Source: Clostridia bacterium
GTDB taxonomy: Bacteria > Bacillota > Clostridia > Oscillospirales > Acutalibacteraceae
NCBI GenBank assembly: GCA_017429345.1
Contig: JAFRPB010000115.1
Coordinates: forward strand, 1 to 64,000
DNA: 64,000 nucleotides
Reading direction: 5' to 3'
Shown: positions 3,695 to 47,905 of the stretch, piece by piece
How the letters are laid out: each line of letters begins with the position of its first letter
Position numbering within the stretch: position 1 is the first letter of the stretch
Translations under genes and position numbers: made by a program
The notes under the pieces: generated by a model
Seen by the model: only the letters and a program-made list of their open reading frames with translations
Told to the model about the DNA's origin: nothing
Database searches by the model: none

Positions 3695-4765
3695 TCAGAT
3701 ATTAAAATTAATCATATTAATCGGAATTGCTACAACGACATAAATACTCACATCCCTGATTCCATTTCCTTCTTCTGCATATGTGCATATAACTGTGACA
3801 TCGTTTTTTTCATAAACAAGGCTGGAATACCAATCAGCACTCAATCGCTTGCTCCGCGATACGTTCTGAGTAAATCCTCTGTTTTTCAAAGTGTTTGTAT
3901 AAGTCTCTAATACCTGTACTGCGGATCCTGAATAGGATGGAGCTCTCTCAAATACGGCATCTTCATATAATAATTCGTAAACTCCGTATTTATACCAAAA
4001 CTCAATATATTGACCCGGAAAATCCTCATACTGAACAAGATCTGCCACAATCAGTTTTGTTGGGGTTTTTCCAAAAAAAGTACCCAAATCTGGAATTCCG
4101 TTATATCCGCCATAATCTCCAGAACCGTTATATATTAATTTCAAATCGATGCTTGCATAGACACTTGGGTTGTCTTTCAAAGAAATCGTGATTGAAGTGT
4201 TTACTGGAGCATAAGACCAACCGATTTCATTTACAAAGTCATTAGTAATAAACAACATATTTGATAATGTTCCATCTTCATTTTCGTTCCAACGAAAACT
4301 ACAATCCTTATCACCACATTTTATGTCTACTGCATCTTTAACAAATTGATCATTTACACCTGCTACCTTAACAAGTAGGGCCGCCGTTCCACCTTGATGT
4401 ATCTCGAAATAATTAGATGATACTTCAATTGGTTTTGTTTGCCTTGTCGGAACTGTTGTGGTCGGTTGCGTTGTTGTCGTCGGTTGGGTAGGAAGTGTTT
4501 CCAGCTTCGCGGCGGCGCGAAGGATTCTTCTTGCATCGGAAGACGTCACCTTTCCGTCTCCGTCTATATCCGCGAGCGAAATCTGACTTTGTGACAGCAC
4601 TTCAAGTTTCGCCGCAGAACGAAGAGCAACCCTTGCGTCGGTTGAATTTACCTTTCCGTCAAAGTTCAGATCTCCCTTCGCAGATGAAAACGCGGTAATG
4701 TTAAATATACCGGCTATGATTCCGAACATTAACATCACTATAACTATTCTTTGGCTTTTTTTCAC
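3695..4765 (-). CDS. Secreted protein with N-terminal dockerin-like domain
   Basis: This 356-residue protein has a signal peptide (residues 1-30) followed at once by two dockerin type I-like repeats, each with a Ca-binding loop and helix (DLNFDGKVNSTDARVALRSA and DIDGDGKVTSSDARRILRAA). A Thr/Pro linker follows, then about 240 residues that I do not recognise. Dockerins bind cohesins, but no cohesin gene is present here, and dockerins with this DARxxLRxAA helix are common outside true cellulosomes. The start is a GTG preceded by AGGAG. It lies 18 nt after a 51-codon ORF and shares its promoter. The DNA is clearly more AT-rich than its neighbours. Confidence 0.75.
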   Translation of the reverse strand: MKKSQRIVIVMLMFGIIAGIFNITAFSSAKGDLNFDGKVNSTDARVALRSAAKLEVLSQSQISLADIDGDGKVTSSDARRILRAAAKLETLPTQPTTTTQPTTTVPTRQTKPIEVSSNYFEIHQGGTAALLVKVAGVNDQFVKDAVDIKCGDKDCSFRWNENEDGTLSNMLFITNDFVNEIGWSYAPVNTSITISLKDNPSVYASIDLKLIYNGSGDYGGYNGIPDLGTFFGKTPTKLIVADLVQYEDFPGQYIEFWYKYGVYELLYEDAVFERAPSYSGSAVQVLETYTNTLKNRGFTQNVSRSKRLSADWYSSLVYEKNDVTVICTYAEEGNGIRDVSIYVVVAIPINMINFNI

Positions 4766-5450: not shown

Positions 5451-6845
5451 ATGTTCTATAATATCAAACGCCTCACTGTGAAAATATCGGCCCTGCTGCT
5501 CTGCGCGGCGGTATTATTTTCCTGTTTCGCGCAGGCGGCGTTCGCCTACCCCGCCGACGCGGAGGCGCTGCTGAACGCCGCGCCGCTGACGCCCGTTTAT
5601 TCAAACGACGAAGACGTGGACCGGATGGTGGCCGAGGTCCTTGCAGAGCAGACGACGCCCCGGATGACGACCGCCGAGAAGGTGCTGGCGCTCTACGATT
5701 ACTGCATAGCGAACTACACCTACGCAAAGCCCGACTATTACCATTCGTGGCTCTATTACGACGCTTACAAAAGCCGCACGGACGCGTGGACGGTCTGCTG
5801 CGCGGCGTATATCCTCAAATACCACGTCGGCGTGTGCGATCACTATTCCGCGGCGTATACGCTGATGCTGCGGGCGATCGGGCTCGAAGCGTATCACGTG
5901 CGCGGCACGGTGATCGGCGACGACCATATGTGGACGGTCGTGCGTCTGAACGGCGCGCTCTACACCTTCGACCCGGAGGTGGATTACAAAAATCAGACCA
6001 AGCGCGGCTCCCACGTTTACCTCTTTTACGGTATGCCGGACAGCGTCTCGCCGAAGTATTACGGCAACGGCGAACGGCAGGCCTGCATCAACGACTACGG
6101 CGGCTTTGCGCGCACGGACGGCAAACAGGCGGAGCCGCCCGCGCCGCAGATCCCGGCGACGGAAATCACGGATATTCTTTCAAGCGCGCCTGTCGTCTCC
6201 GTCGGCTGTTCCGCCCGCTTTCTCATCTTCTGCAGCGGCGGCGCGGAAAGCGGCGGCTCTTATACGGTCATACTATCCGATACGACGGACGCTGCGGCCG
6301 CGATCACGGAAAGGGACGGCGCTTTTCTCTGGACGCCGCGGACGGAAGGAACGCATCTTCTGAGGTTTTCCGCCGCGGGAGAAGACGGCAGCCGGGACGA
6401 CAAAGAATTCACGGTTGAAGTGCGTTCCGCCTCTGTTCTGAACGGCAAAAACGACGCCTGCGGCGCGGTTCCCGTTCCGCCGGACGAGACCGCCGGTTCT
6501 CTTGCCGCGGATTTCTTTGCGGGACAAAAGGTGGCTTTTCTTCTGCCGAACGGCGAACCTGCCGCACCCGATGCGACCGCTGCGGGGCTTACCGTTCGAC
6601 TCGACGCGTCGGACGACAAGGCGACGCTCGTTGCCGGCTGCGACGCGGACGGCAACGGAAAGATCACCTCGGCAGACGCAAGGCTTGCGCTTCGTGCAGC
6701 CGCCAGACTGCAAACGATAACCGATCCTCTCCGCTTTGCCTGTACGGACCTGAACAGAGACGGGAAAATCACCACCGCGGACGCGCGAGGGATCCTTCGC
6801 GCCGCCGCGCGCGTTATTCCGGCGGCGTATGTAAGCGTGATCTGA
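5451..6845 (+). CDS. Secreted transglutaminase-like protein with C-terminal dockerin
   Basis: The 464-residue protein has a signal peptide (1-32) and a transglutaminase-like core. The catalytic triad is visible as Cys129 in GVCDHYSAAY, His159 in DDHMWTVV and Asp174 in YTFDPEVD. A middle region (about 225-390) looks like a beta-sandwich. The C terminus carries two dockerin-like repeats (DADGNGKITSADARLALRAA and DLNRDGKITTADARGILRAA). Bacterial secreted members act as cysteine proteases or transpeptidases on peptides or cell-wall stems; the substrate here is unknown. It shares the dockerin type with the protein at 3695-4765. GGAGG precedes the ATG. Confidence 0.8.
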   Translation: MFYNIKRLTVKISALLLCAAVLFSCFAQAAFAYPADAEALLNAAPLTPVYSNDEDVDRMVAEVLAEQTTPRMTTAEKVLALYDYCIANYTYAKPDYYHSWLYYDAYKSRTDAWTVCCAAYILKYHVGVCDHYSAAYTLMLRAIGLEAYHVRGTVIGDDHMWTVVRLNGALYTFDPEVDYKNQTKRGSHVYLFYGMPDSVSPKYYGNGERQACINDYGGFARTDGKQAEPPAPQIPATEITDILSSAPVVSVGCSARFLIFCSGGAESGGSYTVILSDTTDAAAAITERDGAFLWTPRTEGTHLLRFSAAGEDGSRDDKEFTVEVRSASVLNGKNDACGAVPVPPDETAGSLAADFFAGQKVAFLLPNGEPAAPDATAAGLTVRLDASDDKATLVAGCDADGNGKITSADARLALRAAARLQTITDPLRFACTDLNRDGKITTADARGILRAAARVIPAAYVSVI

Positions 6846-11604: not shown

Positions 11605-11642
11605 CTGAAAAAATCGCCGTTCCCCGAAGGGAACGGCGGATT
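11605..11642 (-). terminator. Terminator of the giant-protein gene
   Basis: On the minus strand CGCCGTTCCC and GGGAACGGCG form a stem closed by a TTCG-like loop and followed by ATTTTTTC. Confidence 0.8.
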
Positions 11643-11673: not shown

Positions 11674-14600
11674 TTATGCTTTGCTTCCAAACAGGCCTTT
11701 GAACCAGTTGATGATCGACTTCAGCCAGTCAATGATCTTCTGGAACATCGGGATGAAGCCGTGCGAGACAACGCCTTCTTCGTCAACAACGTCAGACGTC
11801 TTGTCGAAGATCTTGTGCATCATAGCCGCGAAGGACTGGATGTACGCGTCATCGGAACCGTCGATCATGCCGATCATGAATCTCCAGTTGTCGTTTGTCT
11901 CGTCAAGTCTCTCAAGCGTTGCCGCGGAAGCGACGTCCCAACCGAAGAATACGTAGTATGCAAGACCCATCATCATTGTGATGCCCTGCGGCTTCGCAAG
12001 ATATTCGATGAACGTATCGTAGGTCGCAAGTACATACTCCTGCGTCTCGGCATCCGGAATGTTATCCTTGATCATCTGTTTGACAGTGCTCTGATTCTCG
12101 GGCAGCGTCAGCCAGTGGAGTGCGAGTCTGAGAACGACCGTGATCATGTCGGACTTGCCGGCCATCTGCAGTTCTTCATCCTCGACGTATTCCATCGTGA
12201 ACGCCTGCTCGCCGTTCTTGGATGTATACTCGATAACCTCACCGAGCGTCAGTTCAGCAATGCTGTTGAGCGCGGGTTCGGTGATCTCATCCGCATAGTC
12301 GGGCAGGAGCTTGTTGATGACCAGTCTGAGGACATACTCCATATCCATCTCTTCAAGGTTGAAGTTCATGACTTCGTACAGATCAACCTTGACGAGCGGT
12401 TCGATCGCGTGCAGGATCACGTAGACCGGATGGAGAACGTTTCTGAACGCAGTGTCGAGACCGTCGGAGTTGACGAAGTAGATCAGCGCCGGGAGTCTGT
12501 CAAGCAGATGGTTCAGCGGATCTTCGGTGATGTAGTCAATGAAGTCGAGCAGCGGGTTCAGAATATCTCTGATCAGGTTGTCTTCATCCGCTTCAACGTC
12601 AGCCTTATACTGGGCAAACGTCTTGATGTTCTCGTTCTTGTAGTCAAAGGCCTCAAGCAGCGGGATGATCGCCTTGTTGTAGCCCTGGCCGCCGGGAAGA
12701 ACGATGAGGTTGGAATGGTCAACGTCGTTGAAGAATGCGATCTGCTCATCCAGCAGCAGCCAGCGAAGCACCGGATACAGCGGACGGACAAAGTCGATGA
12801 TCGAGTTGATGAAGCCGTCTCTGTCGCCGTCTTCAAACGCGAACTCGAAGCCTTCCTCAGCATACTTGTTATACTCGTTCAGATCAACGCCGAGCGAATC
12901 CTTGACAAGCGCCTTGATGTGGCCGTCGGGATCGATCTCATCGATCTTCTCGATGTAGGTGAGGATCTTGACAGCGATCTTTTCAGCGTTGCCGGTTGTA
13001 TAGGCGTAATCCTCAAGCAGGAATTCAAGCGTGGTCTCAAGGTCGGAGAGATCGAAGCCGTCGATACGGATACCGAGCAGACGCATCGTGTTGTCAACAA
13101 CCTTGTTCAGGTTCTCTGCGACATAGTCTGCCTTCTCAACCGTCCAGTACTGGTCGTAACCCTCACGGAAGACGATCGATCTTTCCATCGGCGATACGGG
13201 CATCTCAACGCTCGAGTCGATCTCGGTGTAATTATTGACCGTGAACAGCCATCTGTAATCAGAGTACTCGATATCATTCTCATGAAGATCGAGAACATTT
13301 CTGATCGCCTTGTAGGTGTTCGCGCCGTTGTCGCCGAGCAGACTGATGAGCGCATCCTTGTTCGCGTCGTTGCGGACGATGTTCACAGCCGCAGCTACGA
13401 GGATCGTCACAACGTCGAGGTAAGCGAGCTCACTGTTGTCAACGCCGAGCGTATCGTTTACATAGTTCATCTTGTAAGCGATGTTGCCGTTCGCGGACTC
13501 GATCTGCTCGACCTCGCCGATCGCGAAGGTCTCAAACAGGTTGTTGCCGTCATAGGTGACGGAGCCGTTGATCTGAAGGCCGGTCAGCGCTTCAACGATG
13601 TCAAGGACCGCGACAATGTCAAGGTTCTCAACATCGATCTTGCCCGCAAGCTTCTCGTTGTCTTTCAGCAGCTCGTCAACGATGCTCTGCAGCGTCGCAT
13701 ATTCGGGCTTGCCGATCAGCGTCGAGACGTCTTCAAGCAGGTTCGTCACGGGAACGATCAGGTTGCGTACGGATACGGACAGACCGTTCGCGTTGATGAA
13801 GTAGAGCAGGTTCGGGATCTTCTCAACGATCTTGCGGACGGAATCTTCGTCATTGACGATCGTGTCGATCTCGCCGAGGAGTTTCTCAGCCGTGTATCTC
13901 AGATAATCGATACCGGTGGGATTCTCAAGGGTGCCGAGGTCGCTCAGGTCGATGCCCAGCGCCTCGAGGATCGGAACGATCGCGTTCATGAAGCCGTTCG
14001 CGCCGTCGAAGCGGATCGCGTCATAACGGACCTCATCGTTCGCGACATAGCCGTCCTTGGTGTAGAGCAGGCACAGGTCTTCATCGGCAAGCAGCCAGTT
14101 CAGCAGGAAGTCGATGGGTTCAACGATCGAAATCAGCTCGTTGATGAACGCATCTCTCGTCATGCTGCCGGTGTTCTCTTCGTTGATGTATTTATCCCAG
14201 GTGTCGAGATCAACATCAAGAACAACGGAAATGGCTTTGCGCAGGACTTCGTCCATATCGCCGACCATGTTGCCGACCGCAGCGCCGATCTTGTTGACGG
14301 TCTCCCACGAATACAGGTTCGCTGCGCTGTACTTATCTTTGATCAGCGCGCTCAGCGAATCGTAATCGGAGGCGTTCTTGATGACCGTGTCTACGATGCT
14401 GTAGAAGTTATCCTGAATGTATTTTACGGTTTCAAGGTTCCAGTTGTTGCTGTAATCGAGATAGCCCATCGTGGACTTTCTGTAATCCACGGGTACCTTC
14501 GAGCCGACGCCGCTGAAGCTTTCTTCAGAGACGGAGGAATCGAAGTAGAACCAGTCGTACTCAGCGAACGCAGCCTCTTCAATCGCCTTGTTCATCAGAT

Positions 14601-17600
14601 TGATGACCGCGTTGTATCTGTCTTCGCCGATAAGACCGGACCAGAAGCTGCTGTTGCCCTCATACTTGAACAGATCGATCGCGGAGCAGATCAGGATGGT
14701 CAGCATGCTCATGCCGTCCATATCGTCGTTATACTCCATCGTGTAATACGTTCTGCCCTCATCGAGGCCGTCGAGCTTCACGAGCTTACCGATTGCAAAC
14801 TTCTCAAGATACAGAATGCCGTCGTTGGAGAGCGCGTCTCTGATCGAGAGATTGATGTCATTCTGGCCGAGGATCGTCTCAGCGATATCAACCACGTCGC
14901 CGAGTCTGATGTCGTTAATCGAAGTGATGCCGTACTGGTCAAGTTTCAGCAGCGAAACGATATCAACGTCATCCTTGCCGGTGAACTTCATGACTTCGTT
15001 TACGAGCGCGATGACCGAACCGAAAATGTTGTTCACCGCTACGCCGAGGCCGTTCGCGTTGATGAAGTACAGCAGCTGCGGTACCATATCCGAAAGCGTC
15101 TTCAGCGGATCGTCGGAATCGAGGACCGTCATGACCTTTTCGATGATCTTCGTCAGGGCCAGTTCGACCGCGCCGAGACCGTCAAGATCTGCAAGATCGT
15201 CTTCCGAGATGTCGCATTCAAGCACGCGAAGGATCGGCAGCACGCCTTCTTCGAAGCCGTTGGCGCCGGTCAGGCTGATCGCAGCGTCGCCGTTCTTGAG
15301 ATAGAATACCTCGATCGGCTTGTCTTTACCGAACATCAGCCAGTCAACAAGGATGCCGACGGGTCTGAGCATTGCCATGACCTTATTGATGAACTGTTTC
15401 GGCGTGTACTTCGTGTTCTGCGCGTCGCTGATCTCCTCATCGGGATCCTCAACGGCCTTGTACTGGTTGATAATGTTCTTCCATTCGTTCCAGTCTTCCT
15501 CGGGGATGCCGAGCGCAACGCCGAGCAGATCGATCAGCTGATCGTTGTCAAGATTCTCAAGCAGGCTTGCAATCAGTTTGCCGACCTTGTACTCCAGTCT
15601 CTTGTCAAGCGGGTTCTTGCTCTCCCAGAGGTTGTTCAGGTACGCTTTTGCTGTTGTGATATCGTCGTTCGAGGCGTCGTCGTCGCCTGCGACGATCATG
15701 CCGACGACAAGATCGAGGATATCTTTGAATTCTCTGCGCAGTCTGTCTGCTCTGCCGGCATTCCAGAGATTCTTCTGATCCTCATCCATGTAGGACAGAT
15801 AGGACTCAAGAATGTAATCCATCGAGGTCGAATACTCCGCGAGATCCGCCTCGCCGGATGCAAGCGCCGAAAGGAAGGCAGCCGCTTCTTCTGTCGAATA
15901 GCCCTTCACTTCATCGCTGAAGTAGAACCAATCGTATTCCGCGATTTCGGGCTCGATCTTCGAATGCAGCATCTCTCTGATCGTTCTCACCGTCTCAACG
16001 GCGGATTCGGGATCATCCTTGTTAATGATCTTCGCGATCGTGAGATCGTGCGGGAAGACGCCCTCTTCGGGTTCATAGTTGAATACGTCGAACGCAGCGC
16101 AGATCAGGATGGTGATCATGCTCATGCCGTCGAGATCGTCGTTGTACTCCATCGTGAAGTACGGATCGCCGGTGACCTCGGACGTCTTGTTGACGAGCTT
16201 GCCGAGCGCAAACGTCTCAAGGAAGTTTTCGCCGTCAAGCGAAAGCGCGTCGATCAGGTTCAGCGTGATGTCGTTCTTCGCAAGGATCAGTTCGACGACC
16301 TTGACAAGATCAACGAGTCTGAAGTCTTCGATCGACTCAATGCCGTACTGATCAAGCTTCAGCAGTTTTACGAGATCGGAGATCTCCTCTTTGCCGGTGA
16401 GCGTCGCGGCCTGCGTAAGAAGTTCCTTCACGGGACCGAGCAGGTTGTGAAGCGTGACGCCCAGACCGTTCGCGTTGACGAAGTACAGCAGCTGCGGGAT
16501 CATGTCAACGACCGTCTCAACCGGATCTTCGGACTCGAGGACCGCTTCCAGCTTGCCGATCAGGGCGTTGAGCGTGATTCTGAGAGCCGAGATACCGTCA
16601 AGCTCTTCAAGATCGATCTCGGGGATGTCGCACTCAAGCACTTCGAGGATCGGGAGCAGGCCCTTCTCAAAGCCCTTCGAGCCGGAGAGATTGATCGCTG
16701 CACTGTTGTCGTTCAGGTAGAATACCTTAATGGGTTTGTCGCAAAGCAGCCAGTCAAGAAGCTTGCCGATCGGGCTGAACATGTCAAGGATCTCGTCGAC
16801 GAATTCGGACGGCGTATAAACCGTGTTCTCTTCGTCCGGGATAGCCTCTTCGACGTCTTCTATCTCGGTATACTGTGCCATTGTCTCTCTCCAGGCAGCC
16901 CAGTCGCTCTCGGGAATGTCGAGCACTACGCCGATCAGTTCCGCAAGCGTCTCATTGTCAAGCTGCGAGAAGATATTGCCGACCGCGCCGCCGATGGTGC
17001 AGAGAAGTCTCTTGTTCAGCGGGTTGTTGCGCTCCCAGATGCTGTTGAGATACTGGGAAGCGGTGGTCATAGCGTCGTTGGATTCGTCGTCGTCATTCTT
17101 TACGATCTCCGCAATGATCATGTTGATGATGTCGTTGTGAAGATCTTTGATGGCGGCGGCTGTTCTTGCGTTCCAGAGGTTCGTCTGGTCTTCATCCTTA
17201 TAGCTCAGGTAGCTCGTAAGGATGTAGTTCATCGTCGTCGCATACTCGGAGAGGTCAGCCTCGCCGTTGGCAAGCGCGATCAGGAACTCGGACATATCGT
17301 CGGCGTTGTAATCGCTCAGCTCCTGATTGAAGTAGAACCAATCATACTCACCGTAATAGGTCTCGTCAACGAAGATCTGGAGCATGTTTCTGATCGCTGC
17401 GACTTTTTCGGCGCCCGCTGCGGGATCGTCCTTATCAACAAGCTTGCCGATCGCAAGGTCATTCGGGTATTCGCCGTCGACCTGATAGTTCAGCACGTCG
17501 AAGACCGTGTAGATGAGGATCGTAAGCAGATCCGCCTTGCTCTCCTCGGTGGCATCCGTAAACTCGGCGTAGTAACGGTCGAGACCGTTCGCAGACGCCT

Positions 17601-20600
17601 TCTTGTGAATGTCGCCGTAGTAGAAGTTTTCAAGGTAATTGTACCCGGTCACAACATTGTAGTTGATATTGCCGTCCGGACCCGGAAGCGTGCCGTGAAC
17701 GGTCATGGTGACCGCGTCGTAAACGTTGATGCCGGTGAGGACTTTCACGATGTTGAGAACGGCTTCCAGATCAAGGGTGCCGATGGAGAAGTCATCAGGC
17801 AGCACGACCGGTTCTTCCGCGTCGTTGTTGCTCTTGTTGATCGCGCCGATGACAAGATCGTCAACAACGGCGATCAGCTTGTCGTAGCCGGAAATGCTTT
17901 CGTCCGCAAGGATCTCACGGATGTGCGCTTTCTCTTCATCGTCCGTATCGATCAGCATCGGGCCGATCGCGGTGATCAGCGGAGCGATCGGAGCGACAAG
18001 GTTCACGATGCTCGTGGTCAGACCGTTGGCGTTAATGAAGTAAAGCAGGTTGGGAAGAAGATCGAGAACCGCGTTGAGGGGATCGTCGCTGTTGACGATG
18101 GAATCAAGCTTGTTCAGGATCGAGGTGATCGTGTAGGTCAGCACGCTGACGCCGGTATCGTCTGCCGTAAGCAGGGCGGGCTCGCACCCGAACGCCTCGA
18201 GGATCGGAACCAGGCAGCGGTTATAGCCCTGGCCGCCGGCAAGGACGATCTGATCCTGCGCAACGGTGTCCTGCGCGTCTGCGGAGGTGGAAACCTGACC
18301 GTTCTGGTTCGTCATCGAGTAGAAGAATTTATACTCGTCGCCGACCAGCAGCCAGCTCAGGATCTCATCAAGCGGAGAAAGAAGCGAAGCGAGGGCCTCG
18401 GAGAATTCTTCAGTTGTTGCATAAGGCTCTGCGCTCTGCCATTCCTCTTTCGCCTGCCAGATCTTGACGGGTTCGCCGGTCTCATCGTCGAGAACGACTT
18501 CTTCGGTCTCTTCGCCGGTTTCTTCGTCAACGATGATCTTGGTCTTATCCACCTGCTCAAGGTAGGTCTGCGCCCACGTGTCAAGGTCGATTTCCAGGAA
18601 TACGTTCAGCAGATCTTTGAATGTCATCACCTCAGCGGGGATGAAGCCGTAAACCATCTGGGCAATGTCGCCGATGGTCTTGGGCGAGAAAGCGCTGCCG
18701 ACTTTTTCACTCCAGATACCCTGGATGAACTCGCTCGCGGAGGCATACGGAGCCTCCGAGTTCTTCGTGAGCATCTCGACCGCCATATCCGCAAGAGCGG
18801 GAATGCTGTCGATCAGCTTGCGGGCAAGCTCGTTGGTCCACAGGTTGACGTCGTCGGGAAGCTGCTGGATCTCGAACAGATCCGCGGGGGTATCGATCCC
18901 CTTGCCGTATCTCAGGTAGTAGATGGTTCTGCCGGGCAGGACGATCTCGCCGTCTTCCTCGCGTCTTGAGCTGCCGTCGATATAGAACCAGTTGGGCTCT
19001 CTCAGGTAAGATACCACGGAACCGGTATCCTGCAGCACAGCCTTGATCGCACTGACAAGATCGACATACTCGGTGACCTTCGCCGCTTTTTCTTCATCGG
19101 TGATCAAACGGGTCAGCAGGCTCTTGATCGCCTCGATGTTCGTGCCCTCGAACACCAGATCGAGCGCCATGGAAACGGCGACCGTCAGGATGTTCGCGGC
19201 ATTCGCACGGTTCTTCTTATCGGTACCGTTTTCTGAGAAGATGATACGCGTGGGATAAACCGTCGACTTGCCCGTTGTAGACGAATGCTCAAGAGCGAGG
19301 ACGTTTTCAACGCCGTAGTTCAGCGGAGCGATATCGAAGTAGTTCGCGCTGCCGACAGTCGCGCCGTTGGCCTTGTTGATCGCCTTGCCGACGATGTCAA
19401 ACAGAGCCGCGGTGTCGATCTTTCTCAGGCTGATGTTGTAATAGTTGGTGGGCGTAAGAAGCGCCGCGCCCTTCGGGAACTCAAACTCAATGTTCTCGGG
19501 ATCGGTCAGCGCCTGATCGATCACGTCGCCGACGATCTGACCAAGAACGTTATTGATATTGATGCCCAGAAGCGGTCTGACCGTGTCTACCAGCGTCAGA
19601 ATGGGCTTCGCAAGCTCGCGTACGGTCACGGAGACGCCGTTGCTCTCAAGGAACTGGAGCAGGTTGGGCACCAGCTTCGTCATCGTGTTGGTGATGACGT
19701 TATTGCTGCTGTTCGAGGCGCCGTCAAGAACCGCAAGCCAATCGAACGCGGTATCCATAACGTAGGTCAGCTTTGCGTCGTAATTGCCGAGCGCGTTGAA
19801 CTCAGACTGCGTTTTGATATTTTCATTCGGTACGCCGAGCGCTTCGAACAGCGGGATGATCGCCGTCTCATAACCGTTGTTGCCGAGGAGCTGCAGAACG
19901 CCGTTCGGGTTCGCGGTCGTCGGGAACAGGGCGCCGCTCGCGCCGCTCAGCAGGATATCGATCACCGGGCTCAGCGGCTGGAAGATGCAGCCCATCATCG
20001 CCTGGAACGCATGTCTGTTCTGATTGCGCTCTTCTGCGGTCAGTGCGACGTTATCCAGCACCTTGACGAACGAGTAGGTCGTGCCGCCGCTGGTATAGGT
20101 CCACTTGACGTCCTTTTCGGCCTCGCCGGTCTCTTCGTTGTAGACGACCTCGCCGGTGGCGGAGTCGATCTTGTCCACGATCGTCGGGACAAGACCCGGG
20201 AAGTTGTTGACGTAGTCGGCCTGGCCGGGCTGTTTATGCCGCTCCTCCGCCGGGGTCTCGTCGGTATCGTACAGATAACCGAAGGTATCCGCCCAGGCGT
20301 GGATGTTCAGGCCCTGAGAGGTGAAACGGCTGAGGATGAAGTTGAGCTGATAGTTGTCGAGCGAATCGCCGATGCCCGCCAGGAACTTGATGAAGTTCGT
20401 GACGTTGCCCTCGTGGAAGCCCTTGCCGAGAATGGTGTCGAGCCAATCCGCGAAGGAAGCGTATCCGTCTTTCTCCAGCGTATCCTTCAGCAGCGTGGTG
20501 AAGATATCGTTCGTGCTTTCCACCAGCGCCTCTGCCTTCTCATAGGTCCAGTCGTTACCGTATTTCAGGTAGACGTAGGAGGAACCGTTGGCATGGCCGT

Positions 20601-23600
20601 CGGTCGTTCTGAGAACGCTGTTGCTGGCGTCTTTGGTTGTCCACTGATTGTACTGCGCATGCGCGTAGGAGACGGGATTGAACAGTTCGATGAGCGCGGC
20701 GCCGAATGCGTTCTGATCGTTGCCGATCGCGGAGAGAAGCGTGGTGATGATTGAGTCATCGTCGCTCTCGTCGCTGATCAGCATGCCCATGATACTGTTC
20801 CGGAACGTCTCATTTGCCAGCGCAGATCCGACATATTTGAGCAGCCACCACAGAACGTCCGGTTTATCCGCCGGGACGAAATAACGCGTGCCGTAGGTGC
20901 GCTCCGAACCGGTAGCGTTGCAGCTTGTGCCGAGTTCGCTGAGCTGCGTCTGATTGATATACGGCAGACTGTTGACCAGCGCGGTCAGCTTTGCGTTGTC
21001 GGATTTCGCAAGAAGACCCTTGAGGATCTTGTTGATATCGGTGATGTCGCGCTCGTTCTCGGGCAGACCGTCGAGCAGCATGCCGGCAAGATCGATCTTT
21101 CCGCCGACGTTGACCGGCATCTTGATCTGCGGCAGCGCGTTGTTGATCTGGCTCTTGAACAGGCTGAGGATCCAGTCCGCATCGAGCCACGAAACGCCGA
21201 TCGAGGCCTGGTCGATATCCTCGACCTCAAGATCGATGGTCATGTTGATGGTGAGGTTGTTCAGCAGCCCGTTGATCGCGTCGTTGCGCAGCGCGTAGGT
21301 CAGCGTGGGCAGGATGCTGAGGATCTTATCGATGGGATAGGTCGTGACCTGCGTGATCAGCGCCTTCAGCGGGCCCATCAGCCCGTTGACGTAGGTCGCG
21401 GCGTCGCTGTCCGTGCCCGGACGGTAGCTCGACAGGTTCACAGCGTTATAGCTGTAGTTATCGACGCCGAACGCCTCGAAGATGGGCGCCAGGATGTCTC
21501 TGTAGCCGTAGACCGTGGGACCGTTTTCACCGTGCGTCGCGGTGATGCTGAAGTATGCGCCGGCGCGCGCCTTGACGAACAGCGCGGCGTTGATGTTGCC
21601 GGTATCGGTGCCCATGAGGGTCGCATGGACCTTCGCGTGCATATCGTCGGAGATCGCGTAGCCCGCGGAGCCGAGATGCGTCGTATAGTTGGTCTTGCCG
21701 CCGAGCGCGATGCGCGCAACGGGCAGGATCGAGTCGATGATCGCGGTCAGCGCGTTCTTGAACTTCGTCTCATCGCCGTTGATGCCCCAGACGAAGTCGA
21801 GCTGATCGTCGTTGCCGTACAGATACGGGTTGTAACCGACGACCGTATCGGAGACATAATTCGCCGCCTGCCAGTCGCCGGGGAAGTTGCCGAGGTAACT
21901 ATAGTTCGTACCCTGATCCGGCGTGTTCCAGTTCGCGGCGCTCCGCAGCATCGACTGGACGGACGGGAACGCGCCCATATGATTCGCCAGATACTCCGGA
22001 TAGATATCAAGACCCGCGTTGTGGAGCAGATCCTTGAACTTCGCCGTGCTCTGCGGCCCGTTGAAGTAGAGGTAAACGTAACCGCTCATGCCGTCGCAGC
22101 CGCCGCCCCAGGAACCGGTGCTGCCGCTGATGTTGAACGTGGAGAGATCGACGGGGTTGTAGTGCGGGTTGTTGTAGAAGAACACTCTGGCGAGCTGGAC
22201 CTTCAGCAGGTTGCAGATCATCGGATAGATCGTGCCGACCAGCTTGTTCATGATCTCGTCGGAATAGAGCTTATCGCGAAGGACCGCTTCGATCAGCTCG
22301 TTCAGGTTCCGGACCTCATGCCCGTTGAGGGTATAGGGAGACTCGGTGCCGTCCGGATTTTCCTTCTTGAGGTTGATGAGGTTCGTCAGATCGTTGCTCT
22401 TCAGGAAATTGTCGAGCTTCGAGATCGTAGCGTTGACCCTTTCGTTGTTTACGTCATAGTTCTCGCCGGTGACTCTCGCAAGATCCAGCTCGGTATTGCC
22501 GTAACGGATCGTGTAGGTGCTGCCGGAGATCTCCATATTGACGCGCGACCATGCCGCCGCCTTCGCCACGGTATCGGTGACCGCGTCGTAAACGCCGTCA
22601 AAGGAGTCCGCCGCGTGAGCGATCAGGATCATGCCCGCAGTGGGCGCCGAGGATGCGGCGGGAGCGTAGATCAGGCTGCGCGCATAATCGTCGCCGTTGG
22701 CGAGATAATTGTAGATGTTCTCATTGATGTCGCTGCCGACCGCCTTGAGCGCGTCCGCATTGACATAGTTGATCTCGCCTTCCGCATCGTAAACTGCCTT
22801 CGCATCGAGAACCTGACGCTCAAGATCCGCAAACAGGACCGTATCGTTGAACGCGACCGCCTTGTTGATCAGCGCGTCGACGTCGTCCGACAGACCGAGA
22901 TACGCTTTCACGCCCTCGATCGTCTCAATCAGCTGATCCACGGAAGCATCGACGTTGACAAGATAAGCGGCCTTTACGGCTGCCTCTGCGCCGTACGCGA
23001 TATCGCCGGGTTCAAATTCGCCGTTTCTGGCCGTAAGCGTCGACCGGATGCCGCGGTCGACCAGGCTGAAATCGAAGGACGGATACGCCTGGGCGGCGCC
23101 TTCTTCAACTTCTTCACGCTGTTTCTCGGAAAGAGAATAGTTGAGAACATAGCTTACGCCCGCAAGAACGCCGTAGATATACTCAAGACGCGCGTCGGAA
23201 AGAGAGGCGTCGAAATACTCAACAGCGGGAACAAACTCCGCGGGTTCCGCTGCGCCTTCCGAGCCTTCATCCATGGCGGCAAGATAAGCGTCTACGTAAT
23301 TAAGATACTGTTCTCTGTAATCGGCCTCGGTCTCTTCGTCGGACTTCTTTGCCGCCGCGAGTTCATCGAGGACGCTGCCGAGAAGCTTGCCCGCGAACCA
23401 GGCGATCACGGTCTTGACATCCTTCAGCTGTTTGTCGAGCACTTTGCCGTAGGCGTCCCAGCTCTTGAGACCGGCCAGATTCGCCGCAGCCGCGGTGTTC
23501 TTGCTGTCGCTCTTGGAAAGAAGAACGCGATATTTCTCGACCTGATCGCGCAGAGCAACATAGTTGCCGATCTGCTGCTTGTAAAGCTCTTCAACGTCTT

Positions 23601-24687
23601 CGACGCCTTCGACGCCGGTCGTATCTTCAAGATCGAGCTTTTCGTAGCTGTCCACAACAGCGTTCATTCTGTCAACGATCGGGCTGAGCGCGCGCGTATA
23701 GCAGGCGCCGTCGATCGCGAGAAGCAGATCCGCGACCGTGTTGCTTACCCATTCGTCGGCAACAATGCCGCCGTACCAGTCTGCGCCGAGATCAACCAGA
23801 GCGGTGAAAACGGCGTAGCCGCGCTCCGCAAGATCTGCAAGATCCGCAGCCGTGTACAGCTTGCTGTTGTTTTTCAGGTATTTCGCCATCTCTGCGCCGT
23901 TATAGCTGTCTTCATCCGCGCCGAACATATCGGTAAACGCGTCGATGACCGCCTTCTGCTCGGACACATCGGTGGTTTCTTTGTCGATTGTGGGTTTGGC
24001 AGAGAAATAGTAGAACTCATAGGTCGAAGTCTCAGCGCCGGTGATCGCGCCGTCTTCCGACGTATAAGCTACCGCGGCTTTCTGCCATGCCGCGCAATGA
24101 TAAGTGATCGAATACTCGGTCACGACCTCCGCCGGGATATTGCCCGCGGAGTAATCTGCAATCGCGTCGGACGCAGATCTTGATGCGCTGACGGTGACGT
24201 CGCCGGGCTCCTCATCGAGGATAAAGTCCGCCTGATCGGAGCCTTCGGTCGCCACACGGTAATTTGCAAGGCTGTGGAACTCCGAAGTGCCGCCGACGGT
24301 GGGGATCAGCTCGTTGATCAGAGCAAGCTTCACCTCATCGGAACCGGCGCCCGACTGAGCGATGACTGCGTCACGGATCTCGCCCATGAAGTTCGCACCC
24401 TCGGTGCCGCCCTTCAGCGCGCCGTTTTTCACGGTGGGCTGAGAAGCGAGCTTCACGGTCAGCGCGGAAACAATCGGACCCAAAGCCTCAAGGACCTTGA
24501 AACGATTGTTTTCGGACGCGTCGTTTGCGTAATCGGTCAGCGCGTCAGCCAGCGACGCTTCCGTCGCAGCCTGCGTCTGCTCAACCGACGCGGCAAATAC
24601 CTGTATCCCCGCCATAGCCGACGTTGAAAGCATCAACACCGACAGGAAGATACTCAGCACTGCACGCAATGGTTTGTTCATCTTCAT
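11674..24687 (-). CDS. Giant secreted modular protein, 4337 residues, unknown family
   Basis: A signal peptide (residues 1-33) is followed by about 700 mostly helical, Glu/Ala-rich residues. The rest consists of about seven diverged modules. Each carries the core order PxxxxLxWLL, GxxGYxxAIIPLLEAFG, about 40 residues of helix with DDPL, LPNLLYFINANGL and VxNLLxPVxxLL. The LLYFINANGL-like anchors lie near residues 1132, 1681, 2216, 2736, 3207, 3629 and 4071, so modules shorten from about 550 to 420 residues toward the C terminus. A second recurring motif, EYDWFYF, occurs between anchors in the later modules. Cysteine is very rare. The last residues (IIDWLKSIINWFKGLFG) form an aromatic/basic amphipathic tail. 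There is no LPXTG motif. The start has AAAGGAG upstream. A large surface or adhesive role is plausible; no function is shown. Confidence 0.85.
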   Translation of the reverse strand: MKMNKPLRAVLSIFLSVLMLSTSAMAGIQVFAASVEQTQAATEASLADALTDYANDASENNRFKVLEALGPIVSALTVKLASQPTVKNGALKGGTEGANFMGEIRDAVIAQSGAGSDEVKLALINELIPTVGGTSEFHSLANYRVATEGSDQADFILDEEPGDVTVSASRSASDAIADYSAGNIPAEVVTEYSITYHCAAWQKAAVAYTSEDGAITGAETSTYEFYYFSAKPTIDKETTDVSEQKAVIDAFTDMFGADEDSYNGAEMAKYLKNNSKLYTAADLADLAERGYAVFTALVDLGADWYGGIVADEWVSNTVADLLLAIDGACYTRALSPIVDRMNAVVDSYEKLDLEDTTGVEGVEDVEELYKQQIGNYVALRDQVEKYRVLLSKSDSKNTAAAANLAGLKSWDAYGKVLDKQLKDVKTVIAWFAGKLLGSVLDELAAAKKSDEETEADYREQYLNYVDAYLAAMDEGSEGAAEPAEFVPAVEYFDASLSDARLEYIYGVLAGVSYVLNYSLSEKQREEVEEGAAQAYPSFDFSLVDRGIRSTLTARNGEFEPGDIAYGAEAAVKAAYLVNVDASVDQLIETIEGVKAYLGLSDDVDALINKAVAFNDTVLFADLERQVLDAKAVYDAEGEINYVNADALKAVGSDINENIYNYLANGDDYARSLIYAPAASSAPTAGMILIAHAADSFDGVYDAVTDTVAKAAAWSRVNMEISGSTYTIRYGNTELDLARVTGENYDVNNERVNATISKLDNFLKSNDLTNLINLKKENPDGTESPYTLNGHEVRNLNELIEAVLRDKLYSDEIMNKLVGTIYPMICNLLKVQLARVFFYNNPHYNPVDLSTFNISGSTGSWGGGCDGMSGYVYLYFNGPQSTAKFKDLLHNAGLDIYPEYLANHMGAFPSVQSMLRSAANWNTPDQGTNYSYLGNFPGDWQAANYVSDTVVGYNPYLYGNDDQLDFVWGINGDETKFKNALTAIIDSILPVARIALGGKTNYTTHLGSAGYAISDDMHAKVHATLMGTDTGNINAALFVKARAGAYFSITATHGENGPTVYGYRDILAPIFEAFGVDNYSYNAVNLSSYRPGTDSDAATYVNGLMGPLKALITQVTTYPIDKILSILPTLTYALRNDAINGLLNNLTINMTIDLEVEDIDQASIGVSWLDADWILSLFKSQINNALPQIKMPVNVGGKIDLAGMLLDGLPENERDITDINKILKGLLAKSDNAKLTALVNSLPYINQTQLSELGTSCNATGSERTYGTRYFVPADKPDVLWWLLKYVGSALANETFRNSIMGMLISDESDDDSIITTLLSAIGNDQNAFGAALIELFNPVSYAHAQYNQWTTKDASNSVLRTTDGHANGSSYVYLKYGNDWTYEKAEALVESTNDIFTTLLKDTLEKDGYASFADWLDTILGKGFHEGNVTNFIKFLAGIGDSLDNYQLNFILSRFTSQGLNIHAWADTFGYLYDTDETPAEERHKQPGQADYVNNFPGLVPTIVDKIDSATGEVVYNEETGEAEKDVKWTYTSGGTTYSFVKVLDNVALTAEERNQNRHAFQAMMGCIFQPLSPVIDILLSGASGALFPTTANPNGVLQLLGNNGYETAIIPLFEALGVPNENIKTQSEFNALGNYDAKLTYVMDTAFDWLAVLDGASNSSNNVITNTMTKLVPNLLQFLESNGVSVTVRELAKPILTLVDTVRPLLGININNVLGQIVGDVIDQALTDPENIEFEFPKGAALLTPTNYYNISLRKIDTAALFDIVGKAINKANGATVGSANYFDIAPLNYGVENVLALEHSSTTGKSTVYPTRIIFSENGTDKKNRANAANILTVAVSMALDLVFEGTNIEAIKSLLTRLITDEEKAAKVTEYVDLVSAIKAVLQDTGSVVSYLREPNWFYIDGSSRREEDGEIVLPGRTIYYLRYGKGIDTPADLFEIQQLPDDVNLWTNELARKLIDSIPALADMAVEMLTKNSEAPYASASEFIQGIWSEKVGSAFSPKTIGDIAQMVYGFIPAEVMTFKDLLNVFLEIDLDTWAQTYLEQVDKTKIIVDEETGEETEEVVLDDETGEPVKIWQAKEEWQSAEPYATTEEFSEALASLLSPLDEILSWLLVGDEYKFFYSMTNQNGQVSTSADAQDTVAQDQIVLAGGQGYNRCLVPILEAFGCEPALLTADDTGVSVLTYTITSILNKLDSIVNSDDPLNAVLDLLPNLLYFINANGLTTSIVNLVAPIAPLITAIGPMLIDTDDEEKAHIREILADESISGYDKLIAVVDDLVIGAINKSNNDAEEPVVLPDDFSIGTLDLEAVLNIVKVLTGINVYDAVTMTVHGTLPGPDGNINYNVVTGYNYLENFYYGDIHKKASANGLDRYYAEFTDATEESKADLLTILIYTVFDVLNYQVDGEYPNDLAIGKLVDKDDPAAGAEKVAAIRNMLQIFVDETYYGEYDWFYFNQELSDYNADDMSEFLIALANGEADLSEYATTMNYILTSYLSYKDEDQTNLWNARTAAAIKDLHNDIINMIIAEIVKNDDDESNDAMTTASQYLNSIWERNNPLNKRLLCTIGGAVGNIFSQLDNETLAELIGVVLDIPESDWAAWRETMAQYTEIEDVEEAIPDEENTVYTPSEFVDEILDMFSPIGKLLDWLLCDKPIKVFYLNDNSAAINLSGSKGFEKGLLPILEVLECDIPEIDLEELDGISALRITLNALIGKLEAVLESEDPVETVVDMIPQLLYFVNANGLGVTLHNLLGPVKELLTQAATLTGKEEISDLVKLLKLDQYGIESIEDFRLVDLVKVVELILAKNDITLNLIDALSLDGENFLETFALGKLVNKTSEVTGDPYFTMEYNDDLDGMSMITILICAAFDVFNYEPEEGVFPHDLTIAKIINKDDPESAVETVRTIREMLHSKIEPEIAEYDWFYFSDEVKGYSTEEAAAFLSALASGEADLAEYSTSMDYILESYLSYMDEDQKNLWNAGRADRLRREFKDILDLVVGMIVAGDDDASNDDITTAKAYLNNLWESKNPLDKRLEYKVGKLIASLLENLDNDQLIDLLGVALGIPEEDWNEWKNIINQYKAVEDPDEEISDAQNTKYTPKQFINKVMAMLRPVGILVDWLMFGKDKPIEVFYLKNGDAAISLTGANGFEEGVLPILRVLECDISEDDLADLDGLGAVELALTKIIEKVMTVLDSDDPLKTLSDMVPQLLYFINANGLGVAVNNIFGSVIALVNEVMKFTGKDDVDIVSLLKLDQYGITSINDIRLGDVVDIAETILGQNDINLSIRDALSNDGILYLEKFAIGKLVKLDGLDEGRTYYTMEYNDDMDGMSMLTILICSAIDLFKYEGNSSFWSGLIGEDRYNAVINLMNKAIEEAAFAEYDWFYFDSSVSEESFSGVGSKVPVDYRKSTMGYLDYSNNWNLETVKYIQDNFYSIVDTVIKNASDYDSLSALIKDKYSAANLYSWETVNKIGAAVGNMVGDMDEVLRKAISVVLDVDLDTWDKYINEENTGSMTRDAFINELISIVEPIDFLLNWLLADEDLCLLYTKDGYVANDEVRYDAIRFDGANGFMNAIVPILEALGIDLSDLGTLENPTGIDYLRYTAEKLLGEIDTIVNDEDSVRKIVEKIPNLLYFINANGLSVSVRNLIVPVTNLLEDVSTLIGKPEYATLQSIVDELLKDNEKLAGKIDVENLDIVAVLDIVEALTGLQINGSVTYDGNNLFETFAIGEVEQIESANGNIAYKMNYVNDTLGVDNSELAYLDVVTILVAAAVNIVRNDANKDALISLLGDNGANTYKAIRNVLDLHENDIEYSDYRWLFTVNNYTEIDSSVEMPVSPMERSIVFREGYDQYWTVEKADYVAENLNKVVDNTMRLLGIRIDGFDLSDLETTLEFLLEDYAYTTGNAEKIAVKILTYIEKIDEIDPDGHIKALVKDSLGVDLNEYNKYAEEGFEFAFEDGDRDGFINSIIDFVRPLYPVLRWLLLDEQIAFFNDVDHSNLIVLPGGQGYNKAIIPLLEAFDYKNENIKTFAQYKADVEADEDNLIRDILNPLLDFIDYITEDPLNHLLDRLPALIYFVNSDGLDTAFRNVLHPVYVILHAIEPLVKVDLYEVMNFNLEEMDMEYVLRLVINKLLPDYADEITEPALNSIAELTLGEVIEYTSKNGEQAFTMEYVEDEELQMAGKSDMITVVLRLALHWLTLPENQSTVKQMIKDNIPDAETQEYVLATYDTFIEYLAKPQGITMMMGLAYYVFFGWDVASAATLERLDETNDNWRFMIGMIDGSDDAYIQSFAAMMHKIFDKTSDVVDEEGVVSHGFIPMFQKIIDWLKSIINWFKGLFGSKA

Positions 24688-24782
24688 GCGAATTCTCCTT
24701 TACATTGAAGAGTTGCCTATAAGCGCTCGAAAGCACACGTTTTCACCAAAACGCCACTTTCTCACGCTATATATTCATTAAT

Positions 24783-37632: not shown

Positions 37633-39660
37633 ATGAAACGCTTTCTCTGCCTGCTGCTCTGCGCCGCGCTTCTGACGGGCGGGCTTTGCGTTCCTCTGTC
37701 CGGCTGCACCCGAACGCCGTCGGAACCGCCCTTCGGCGTGCTTGCGTTTGCGGGCAGCGAAAGTACGCTGATCCGTCTGTGGTTCAGCGAGGCGGAAAAC
37801 GTTTATTATCTGTTCCTGCCGGCGGATGCGGACCGCAGCGCGCTGACGGTCGTCTGCGACGGATCCGTCGCGGTCGACGGCGTCGAGCTGACCGACGGAC
37901 AGCAAACGGATATCTTTGCGGAGAAAGATCTGTTTTTCGCCGAGATCGGCAAAAGAAAGCTCGAGATACGCATCGAGCAGACCGGAAACATCCCCGCCGT
38001 TTTTATTCGGACGGCTTCCGGTTCGCTCGACGCGATCCACGCGGACAAGGAGCATAAAGAAACCGCCGAAATGACCGTGGTCGAAGACGGAGCCGTTACG
38101 CTGAGCAGCGCAAAGCTGGCGCACATAAAAGGCAGAGGCAACACAACGTGGGAAAATGAAAAAAAGCCGTACAATATAAAATTTGAGGAAAAAACCGCGC
38201 GTCTGGGCATGAACGCCGCAAAGAAATGGGCGCTTCTCGCCGACGCGGATCCGATGAGCTGCATCGCCGAGCCGGTCCTTTTCGGTCTCGCGCGGCAGAC
38301 GGATCTTGCCTATACCCCCGAAAGCCGTCACGCCGCGCTGTTTGTCAACGGGGAATATCTCGGCCTGTACCGCGTCAGCGAAAAGGTGCAGGTGGGAAAA
38401 AACAGACTGGATATCGACGATCTCGATAAAGCGAACGAAAAGGCGAACCCGCAGACGGATCTCTCCGCGCTGCCAAAGAAAAAGTCCCTGCGCGGCGGCA
38501 AGGAAGGCGCCGTCGGCGACTATCTGCTGCCGGGAGAGCGGCTCTGGTCGGAGGGTCTGCGCGATCCCGCAGATATCTCCGGCGGATACCTGCTCGAATT
38601 CGAAACAAAAATGGGGGACGCTTCATTCTGCACTTCCCGCGCGGTATGGCTGTCGGCGCATTCACCGGAATACGCCTCCCGCGGGGAGATCGACCTGATC
38701 GCGGATCTGTATCAGCGCGCCGAGGACGCGCTGTATTCCGAAGACGGATATAACGATCGGGGGGAACACTGGTCGGATCTTTTCGACGTCGCCTCCTTCG
38801 TCGATCTATATCTCCTGCAGGAGTTCGGCATGTACAGCGAGGGAGAGAACTCCAGCAGCACTTATATATACAAACCGGCGGGAGAAGACAAGTTTTACGC
38901 CGGTCCTGTCTGGGACGCGGGCGCTTCCTGGCTGTTCGCCGAGCTTCCCGATCTGCCTGTCACGATCAAAAACGACGCGTTCCGCTACGCGAGCTCTCTG
39001 ATATATTATATGCTGATCCCCGACGATACCGGCACAGAGAAATGTGCAGTAAGTATCCCGTCCTTCTTTAATGCAATGTTCCGCCACGAGGAGTTCCGCA
39101 CCGCCGCGGCAAAGCGCTGGGCGGCGCTGTCGGAGCCCGTCTCGAAGCTGCCGGACGCCGCCCGGGACCTGTTCGGCGCCCTGGCCTCCGCCATCGAGGC
39201 GGACGCGCGCCGATGGAACACCGGCGAAGAGACCGGGGAGATGCCGGCCGTACAGATCAGAAAACAATTCGCCGATCGGCTCGCCGTGATGCGCCGCCGG
39301 ACCGACGCGCTGAACAAAGCCTTCACAGAGGACGCGGCGGTATTGTATTATGACGCGAACGGCGGGAAAGGCGCGATGTCGCATCCGCAATTCCTGCATA
39401 TCGGGGAGGAAGCAGCCGTTTCACATGCACAGATCGGAAGCCGATCACAGGCAGAAATAACAGAATCGGTGCTGTCTTTCGAGATACCGATCTATCTGAT
39501 CGACTTCTATGATTCAACGATCATCCCGCCCTCCAAGGAATACGAATTCGTCGGGTGGAACACAAAGCCCGACGGCAGCGGCGATATGTATCAGCCCGGC
39601 GACGAATTCACCGTGACGCAGGCGACGACCGTGCTGTACGCGCAGTGGAAGAACAGATGA
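37633..39660 (+). CDS. CotH-kinase family lipoprotein 3
   Basis: The 675-residue lipoprotein (Cys25) has a leader identical in the first 20 residues to copy 2. Its N-terminal beta domain is closer to copy 1 (YYLFLPADADRSALTVVCDG; FIRTASGSLDAIHADKEHKE), and its kinase domain is again nearly identical to copy 2. The position of the DHDAGN motif reads YSEGENSSS and GPVWDAGA replaces GPVWDFN, so the acidic and Asn residues are partly lost. A Listeria-Bacteroides repeat closes the protein. The mosaic pattern indicates gene conversion. A heptamer array starts immediately at its stop codon. Confidence 0.85.
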   Translation: MKRFLCLLLCAALLTGGLCVPLSGCTRTPSEPPFGVLAFAGSESTLIRLWFSEAENVYYLFLPADADRSALTVVCDGSVAVDGVELTDGQQTDIFAEKDLFFAEIGKRKLEIRIEQTGNIPAVFIRTASGSLDAIHADKEHKETAEMTVVEDGAVTLSSAKLAHIKGRGNTTWENEKKPYNIKFEEKTARLGMNAAKKWALLADADPMSCIAEPVLFGLARQTDLAYTPESRHAALFVNGEYLGLYRVSEKVQVGKNRLDIDDLDKANEKANPQTDLSALPKKKSLRGGKEGAVGDYLLPGERLWSEGLRDPADISGGYLLEFETKMGDASFCTSRAVWLSAHSPEYASRGEIDLIADLYQRAEDALYSEDGYNDRGEHWSDLFDVASFVDLYLLQEFGMYSEGENSSSTYIYKPAGEDKFYAGPVWDAGASWLFAELPDLPVTIKNDAFRYASSLIYYMLIPDDTGTEKCAVSIPSFFNAMFRHEEFRTAAAKRWAALSEPVSKLPDAARDLFGALASAIEADARRWNTGEETGEMPAVQIRKQFADRLAVMRRRTDALNKAFTEDAAVLYYDANGGKGAMSHPQFLHIGEEAAVSHAQIGSRSQAEITESVLSFEIPIYLIDFYDSTIIPPSKEYEFVGWNTKPDGSGDMYQPGDEFTVTQATTVLYAQWKNR

Positions 39661-43237: not shown

Positions 43238-43250
43238 AAGGATCGTTTTT

Positions 43251-43784: not shown

Positions 43785-43832
43785 AGCGAAAAACGTCCGC
43801 GCCGCGTATTTCACGGCGTGGGCGGTTTTGTA

Positions 43833-43861
43833 TTGACAAATCATTCCGAGTATACTATATT
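43833..43861 (+). promoter_or_regulatory. Promoter of the acyltransferase cluster
   Basis: TTGACA (43833-43838), 17-nt spacer, TATATT (43856-43861). Confidence 0.75.
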
Positions 43862-43919
43862 TGTTATGTTGTAGAACTATGAAATGCTCCGTTCATTTTC
43901 ATCTGAAGGAGGCGTTCCC

Positions 43920-45041: not shown

Positions 45042-45065
45042 AAAAAGATTTTTGAGGAGTCAAAT

Positions 45066-46175: not shown

Positions 46176-46187
46176 CGGGGGGCGCTT

Positions 46188-47759: not shown

Positions 47760-47905
47760 GAAATTCTGATTTATCGGGATAAAGGCAATAGGCATTAGGT
47801 AAAGACCGCGGCGCACAGCGTATATTTGACAGGTCTATTGCCTGATGCCCAATGCCTAATGCCTGTAAATTCTGATTTATCGCTCCGCGATAAATCAGAA
47901 TTTAC
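47760..47905. repeat. Nested inverted-repeat element at the spoIIE stop codon
   Basis: From outside to inside: AAATTCTGATTTATCGGGAT (47761-47780), a GGCAATAGGCATTAGG word arm (47784-47799), a 37-nt core, the inverted word arm ATTGCCTGATGCCCAATGCC (from 47837) and a 19-bp perfect hairpin GTAAATTCTGATTTATCGC / GCGATAAATCAGAATTTAC with TCC loop (47865-47905). The spoIIE stop codon TGA is provided by the hairpin stem. Confidence 0.8.

Follow-up and report, generated by a model that had tools for sequence, protein, structure and literature searches.

A giant secreted protein in a gut Clostridia genome

The window, by which we mean the whole 64,000-nucleotide stretch of DNA analysed here, belongs to a gut bacterium related to Ruminococcus, whose genome (G000) amounts to 3.78 Mb in 251 contigs. 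Its minus strand carries a frame that starts with ATG, stays open for 4,337 codons and encodes a protein of 4,337 residues. As detailed in Table 1, this protein consists of a signal peptide (MKMNKPLRAVLSIFLSVLMLSTSAMAGIQVFAA), a variable N-terminal region of about 750 residues, seven modules, a short linker and a C-terminal amphipathic helix. Its composition is dominated by Leu (10.9%), Ala (9.2%) and Asp (8.8%).

Comparison with the gene of a relative (locus L120; 62% identity, 3,775 aligned codons) showed 1058, 787 and 1765 substitutions at the three codon positions, and a dN/dS of about 0.30, which fell to 0.18 across the last 500 codons. Thus, the frame is a functional protein-coding gene under purifying selection. 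The opposite strand contains a 2,547-aa open reading frame (11326-18969, +), which we rejected as a gene because it is a shadow of the codon usage of the giant; comparable antisense shadow frames lie opposite giants at other loci.

An earlier note, made from the sequence of the window, had described a secreted protein of 4,337 residues with its own promoter and terminator, almost no cysteine and no LPXTG motif. The open frame, the Sec-type signal peptide and the strong bidirectional terminator hairpin agree with this description, as do the presence of only 15 cysteines (0.35%) and the absence from the whole protein of any LPXTG-like motif of the sort found in sortase-anchored proteins. The promoter fared less well: no site resembling the sigma-70 consensus was found in 24500-25100, and a promoter belonging to the gene would be deduced only from the upstream gap being 249 bp long and AT-rich.

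Table 1. Features of the giant gene, its product and other genes of the window
Feature	Position	Strand	Basis
Whole gene, giant secreted tandem-module protein, 4,337 aa	11674..24687	-	Open frame, codon-position bias, dN/dS
Ribosome-binding site AAGGAG, 7 nt upstream of ATG	24695..24700	-	Sequence
Putative signal peptide MKMNKPLRAVLSIFLSVLMLSTSAMAGIQVFAA, residues 1-33	24589..24687	-	Hydropathy peak at residues 10-28 and sequence; Sec-type
Variable N-terminal region, residues 34-788, without known domain	22324..24588	-	No Pfam match; comparison with relatives
Module 1, degenerate, residues 789-1318	20734..22323	-	Profile, 31.8 bits over 1060-1317; clusters with first modules of other giants
Module 2, residues 1369-1872	19072..20583	-	Profile, 139 bits
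Module 3, residues 1947-2442	17362..18849	-	Profile, 240 bits
Module 4, residues 2492-2878	16054..17214	-	Profile, 257 bits; lineage-specific duplicate of module 5
Module 5, residues 2963-3377	14557..15801	-	Profile, 255 bits
Module 6, residues 3404-3810	13258..14478	-	Profile, 330 bits
Module 7, residues 3836-4225, the module modelled	12013..13182	-	Profile, 360 bits; AlphaFold2
C-terminal amphipathic tail GFIPMFQKIIDWLKSIINWFKGLFGSKA, 28 residues	11677..11760	-	Helical in model; recurs in about 18 proteins of the genome
Bidirectional intrinsic terminator hairpin, strong, 10-11-bp stem	11614..11639	-	3 found vs 0.8 expected
Dockerin protein	3695..4765	-	
Dockerin protein	5451..6845	+	
CotH-kinase protein with Listeria-Bacteroides repeat	37633..39660	+	
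EamA transporter, GtrA-like protein, three consecutive membrane acyltransferases (PF01757)	42290..47318	+	
SpoIIE	47895..50228	-	

The N-terminal region is the fastest-diverging part of the family and the C-terminus the most conserved one, as illustrated by the identities of 55, 59 and 74% observed from N- to C-terminus between the window protein and one relative. The N-terminal region is 54% identical to that of a relative in genome G003, and clear likeness was found in the nearest relative only; elsewhere just the last 100 or so residues before the modules matched. Pfam recognised no adhesive domain in the window protein. A toxin-like layout was also considered and rejected, because the protein ends in the tail and a C-terminal effector domain is absent.

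Elsewhere in the window, the presence of two dockerin proteins, one of which has a transglutaminase-like domain and a dockerin match just below the cut-off, indicates that the host probably makes cellulosome-like complexes. The run of genes from the EamA transporter to the three acyltransferases is likely to serve the modification of a cell-surface polysaccharide. The CotH-kinase protein and SpoIIE suggest that the host is probably a spore former.

Seven diverged modules and their duplication

To assess the modules, we used a profile built from other genomes only, without any sequence from the window. With this profile, the window protein showed six clear modules (139-360 bits) preceded by a degenerate one (31.8 bits), seven in all, while the top score among 200 shuffles of the same protein was 2.5 bits. 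Internal BLAST pairs reached E values down to 1.6e-89. These comparisons with shuffled sequence, together with the dN/dS, rule out chance repetition and a reading-frame artefact of GC-rich DNA, and they bear out the count of about seven diverged modules given in the earlier note. The repeated motifs listed there, including WLL, DDPL and EYDWFY, could also be located: LLYFINANGL-type motifs occurred five times, WLL or WLM six times, and EYDWFY and DDPL or EDPL three times each. Modules of the window protein are about 390-500 residues long, with a basic unit of about 390 residues, and share about 20-55% identity.

The earlier note further stated that module length falls from the N- to the C-terminus and took this as a sign of stepwise duplication. 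Successive LLYF or LLQF motifs are 538, 519, 472, 422 and 441 residues apart, so that there is a rough trend and no strict fall. Duplication itself was confirmed, although by a module tree and not by length, which does not support it as such. In this tree, the first modules of the giants cluster together, as do the last ones, both being old and common to giants, while internal modules were duplicated within lineages. Modules 4 and 5 of the window protein correspond to a single module in its two nearest relatives, and genome G005 has four near-copies. Stepwise duplication is therefore correct, but it is internal and recent.

Alignment of 110 modules revealed near-invariant columns at F120, G160, G163, P170, E173, P227, Y231, F232, G237, N244, G310, S317 and N359. 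No conserved cluster of H, D, K or C that would suggest catalysis was present among these modules. Gly, Pro, Phe, Tyr and Asn account for most of the near-invariant positions, a pattern that speaks against an enzyme.

A confidently predicted fold without a convincing counterpart in the PDB

Structure prediction of one module, proposed in the earlier note as a check, was performed with AlphaFold2 and family alignments, and gave a confident model for residues 3840-4230 (391 residues; pLDDT 90.8, pTM 0.89). A longer construct comprising residues 3826-4337 (512 residues) was modelled with a pLDDT of 88.4 and a pTM of 0.83. The predicted module is mainly helical, as had been suggested from the sequence, with the addition of two beta-hairpins, which had not.

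Comparison of these models with the PDB yielded nothing convincing, either with Foldseek (best E 0.71 and TM about 0.1 for the 512-residue model; best E 0.52 and TM 0.14 for the 391-residue model) or with VIA (best Z 4.2 and 3.8, respectively, over 63-70 residues). A search of BFVD with the 512-residue model gave no match. In particular, neither Foldseek nor VIA confidently matched the module to any enzyme or adhesin fold in the PDB, which is the result that the earlier note had named as one that would contradict it. At the sequence level, the whole protein had no significant match in Pfam, NCBIfam or PDB sequences, the 110 modules searched one by one against Pfam revealed no recurrent family, and a profile of them found nothing convincing among PDB sequences. 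The Pfam scans of the whole protein and of the modules and the NCBIfam scan of the whole protein returned scattered sub-threshold matches, each in one to three members only. The statement that the modules belong to no recognisable family thus held in each of these searches. To judge from its sequence, the module family is represented in neither Pfam nor NCBIfam, and the modelled fold is apparently new relative to the PDB.

Distribution and architecture of the family

When 84,980 species genomes were scanned, 62 module loci emerged. Every one belonged to Clostridia (under the labels Oscillospiraceae, Ruminococcaceae or Clostridia), and most came from assemblies of ruminant rumen, omasum, caecum or rectum. 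Module proteins were present in 35 of 200 genomes and 18 of 107 genera of the window's own family. Sampling about 1,200 genomes more widely, 396 at the level of the order, 392 at that of the class and 398 at that of the phylum, gave matches within this family only. The database search advocated in the earlier note thus confined the matches, in the sampled genomes, to a single Clostridia family. A phage or plasmid origin was discarded, since tblastn against 50,697 records of phages and 72,556 of plasmids found nothing, and IMG/VR gave no match either. The host genome has at least six module genes: that of the window and five more, on contigs C224, C193, C135, C27 and C223, in which no Pfam match rose above the cut-off. 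We found nothing describing the module family in the literature on giant rumen proteins.

Module proteins are of two kinds, giants and a membrane-anchored short form. The members have in common a signal peptide and an N-terminal region of about 700 residues, followed by the modules, whose number ranges from 2 to about 19, a linker and the tail; the longest giant has a frame of 10,494 residues with 19 module matches. In one member (genome G014, contig C13; locus L122, 712-11052, +), about 2,300 residues of GLUG-type repeats replace the N-terminal region, ahead of two modules and the tail. This arrangement and the N-to-C conservation gradient are what one would expect of a stalk that bears a variable head at its distal end. 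No neighbouring gene was conserved in more than 8 of about 78 giant loci.

A tail common to many proteins of the host

The tail (GFIPMFQKIIDWLKSIINWFKGLFGSKA) is an amphipathic helix. Four such stretches have a hydrophobic moment of 0.56-0.61, a value reached by at most 0.2% of shuffles. Searching the host genome with a tail profile identified about 18 proteins that end within 7 residues of the tail, 9 of which had not been used in building the profile. The bodies of these proteins are mutually unrelated: one is LRR_5, and others appear, from their sequences, to be subtilase-like, beta-repeat or transglutaminase-like. The recurrence of the tail at so many C-termini suggests that it is a sortase-independent surface-retention signal common to many surface proteins of the cell. 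The host encodes two sortases. None of the NCBIfam sorting signals extends over the tail, whose sole NCBIfam match was to PSM-epsilon, below the cut-off (E 6.5e-4), and the literature on C-terminal amphipathic anchoring contained nothing describing it.

The loci sharing the tail (L126-L150) lie on contigs C114, C168, C199, C221, C159, C247, C218, C56, C144, C186 and others of the host genome. Several secreted proteins have a C-x-x-C-G-K-x-H knuckle directly before the tail (e.g. CKWCGKVHTDNFFQKILAFFHKIFAALFG). A second set of proteins (L137, L138, L140, L142, L147, L151, L152 and L153) has a similar helix at the very N-terminus instead (e.g. MSFQQFIQSIVAFFQSIILFFTGLF), in some cases ahead of apparent GH16 or phosphoesterase domains. 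This helix may be an N-terminal counterpart of the putative retention signal.

A two-module form linked to the gene of an ABC protein

The short form has about 870 residues. A signal peptide precedes its two modules, a transmembrane helix lies at its C-terminus, and no Pfam family was found in it. Its conservation greatly exceeds that of the giants, with 46% mean column identity and 42 invariant columns, and its first and second modules, in the ABC-linked proteins, make up two well-supported clades of the module tree. In 13 of 15 loci, the short-form gene is followed immediately by one for an ABC protein, in most cases with an overlap or a distance of no more than 25 bp; MarR or TetR regulators are encoded upstream in several loci.

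This neighbour is an ATPase-FtsX fusion of about 915 residues (PF00005 and PF02687; 59-92% identity among loci), with MacB as its best PDB match (E 1e-70). A transmembrane helix near residues 272-290 is followed by about 475-480 extracellular residues and then by C-terminal transmembrane helices. It thus has the features of a Type VII ABC protein, i.e. an ATPase, an FtsX-type permease, few transmembrane helices and a large extracellular domain. Its extracellular domain forms a clade of its own, with a mean column identity of 65%, which occurred only together with the short form. Among the 200 family genomes, members of this clade (>560 bits, the next best being 305) were detected in 11, from 5 genera, and in all 11 the short form occupied the same place; the clade was never seen without it. 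Two further genomes of the 200 had a short form and no ABC protein of this clade. Three genomes had the short form without giants, and more than 20 had giants with neither the short form nor the ABC protein, indicating that the two uses of the module are separable.

In two loci (L097 of G120 and L098 of G193), the short form has no ABC neighbour. At its C-terminus, the L097 protein has a sortase-like signal composed of VPTGD, a run of hydrophobic residues and RKKKHA, and the L098 protein ends similarly, with RKRKHA. Judging from these termini, the short form without the ABC protein seems to have changed its anchor.

MacA structures are deposited in the PDB, and a profile of the short form matched no PDB chain up to E 10, MacA included. 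Type VII ABC proteins use ATP for work on the outer side of the membrane and not for passage of a substrate across it, and an adaptor gene is part of many MacB operons of Gram-positive bacteria (PMC5985334). By analogy, it is possible that the short form is a functional counterpart, and not a relative, of MacA. Like the MacA-type adaptors YknX and SpMacA, it is extracellular, membrane-anchored and encoded beside a MacB-like ABC gene; unlike them, it has an N-terminal signal peptide together with a C-terminal transmembrane helix, two modules of a new family and no MacA sequence match. The neighbour, for its part, resembles other MacB/FtsX proteins by its N-terminal ATPase fused to an FtsX permease and its large extracellular domain, but differs by the fact that this domain, of about 475 residues, is a separate clade tied to the short form.

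Discussion

The reading that we favour for the giants, to which we give about an even chance, is that they are Sec-exported, surface-retained stalks or fibres of variable length, made of a new module. The signal peptide would take the protein across the membrane, and the aromatic amphipathic helix at its C-terminus would hold it at the envelope, by binding the membrane or a wall polymer. The seven alpha-rich modules of about 390 residues may form a long articulated rod, with the fast-diverging N-terminal region facing outward, where it could meet plant fibre, mucus or other cells. The number of modules, and with it the length of the putative stalk, changes between species through the internal tandem duplication that we observed. 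The two-module form would be the membrane-anchored extracellular partner of the MacB/FtsX-type ABC ATPase to whose gene it is linked. In view of this use, the module probably began as, or was recruited to be, a force-bearing protein-protein interaction domain and not an enzyme. Such a mechanical partner fits the extracellular work of Type VII ABC proteins (PMC5985334), and the strict gene neighbourhood with the ABC protein makes the basic function of the module family testable.

The recurrent architecture, the conservation gradient, the member with GLUG-type repeats, the internal duplications, the non-catalytic invariant positions and the recurrence of the tail all speak for a stalk. Against it are the divergence of the modules, which makes them less uniform than many stalk repeats, the absence of a recognised adhesive domain in the window protein and the ABC-linked short form, which needs a function beyond that of a plain stalk. 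Thus, what stands of the earlier proposal of a large surface fibre or adhesin of an undescribed kind is the new family, the secretion, the tandem modules and the stalk-like layout; what it missed is that the gene is one of at least six of its kind in the host genome, that the C-terminus is a tail also borne by unrelated surface proteins, and that the module, whose two-module form is encoded in close operon linkage with a Type VII ABC protein, is not only a stalk.

In our second choice, about half as probable as the stalk, the module would bind a ligand or assist efflux. The short form would be the dedicated extracellular partner of the ABC protein, acting in the manner of MacA-type adaptors though unrelated to them, and the giants would collect or pass the same hydrophobic ligand (a lipid, a peptide or an antimicrobial) outside the cell. 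The position of the ABC gene directly downstream of the short form, the constant presence of the short form in the 11 genomes with the ABC clade, against only two further genomes that have the short form without it, and the adaptor genes of known Gram-positive MacB operons (PMC5985334) are in line with this. It is at odds with the many genomes in which giants do without the ABC protein, and with the C-terminal transmembrane helix of the short form and its lack of a PDB match, MacA included. The MarR and TetR regulators upstream in several loci, of a type typical of efflux operons, add to its credit, and they also detract from another reading, which we consider improbable, where the proteins regulate the wall or division. 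The short form and the ABC protein would then be an FtsEX-like device pulling a wall-bound partner, and the giants would be wall-spanning structural proteins. It is true that the FtsEX branch of the MacB/FtsX superfamily, to which the ABC protein belongs, transmits force to extracellular helical partners. However, no peptidoglycan-binding or hydrolase domain was found in any member scanned, and the patchy spread (18 of 107 genera) argues against a core role in division.

Slightly less probable still is that the modules are enzymes of an unfamiliar kind, acting for instance on plant polysaccharide and amplified for valency. The dockerin genes of the host imply that it makes plant-fibre enzymes, but the near-invariant positions of the module are structural (G, P, F, Y and N) with a single E, no enzyme fold of the PDB was matched, and no dockerin or CBM was found in the family members scanned.

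Giant tandem-domain surface proteins are already known in the fibrillar adhesins (PMC8286594) and in Giant1-5 of Apilactobacillus (PMC12863079). Common to all are very long single chains of tandem domains, a signal peptide, a variable N-terminus, a length that changes by duplication and C-terminal retention, the last being putative for the window protein. The seven modules form a tandem array of stalk-like domains, one of the properties that define fibrillar adhesins, next to an adhesive domain and attachment to the cell surface (PMC8286594), but do not belong to a listed Pfam stalk family. Whereas the known giants are made of known stalk domains, the window protein has an alpha-rich module without Pfam relative or PDB match, and no sortase motif or recognised adhesive domain; the module also exists in a transmembrane-anchored, ABC-linked form. 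What differs from the known giants is the module, its ABC-linked form and the tail. The latter is, like phenol-soluble modulins and membrane-binding amphipathic helices, a short cationic-aromatic amphipathic helix, but it terminates large secreted proteins instead of being a free peptide, and its match to PSM-epsilon is probably due to convergence.

Taken at its broadest, the picture would be that of a new fold restricted to a single family of gut Clostridia. In its two-module form it would be the obligate extracellular partner of its own ABC clade, tandem duplication would have amplified it into surface fibres of up to about 10,500 residues, and a new sortase-independent C-terminal amphipathic tail, common to much of the surface proteome, would retain these; we put this forward tentatively, as a whole that is rather less likely than the stalk by itself. 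At the least, the modules define a large undescribed family of gut and rumen proteins of up to 10,494 residues, with no Pfam or NCBIfam entry and a predicted fold without convincing PDB counterpart. About half of a set of adhesin-like proteins was reported to have no known anchor (PMC8286594), and the tail, as a candidate sortase-independent retention signal, is relevant to how such adhesin-like proteins of Gram-positive bacteria are held.
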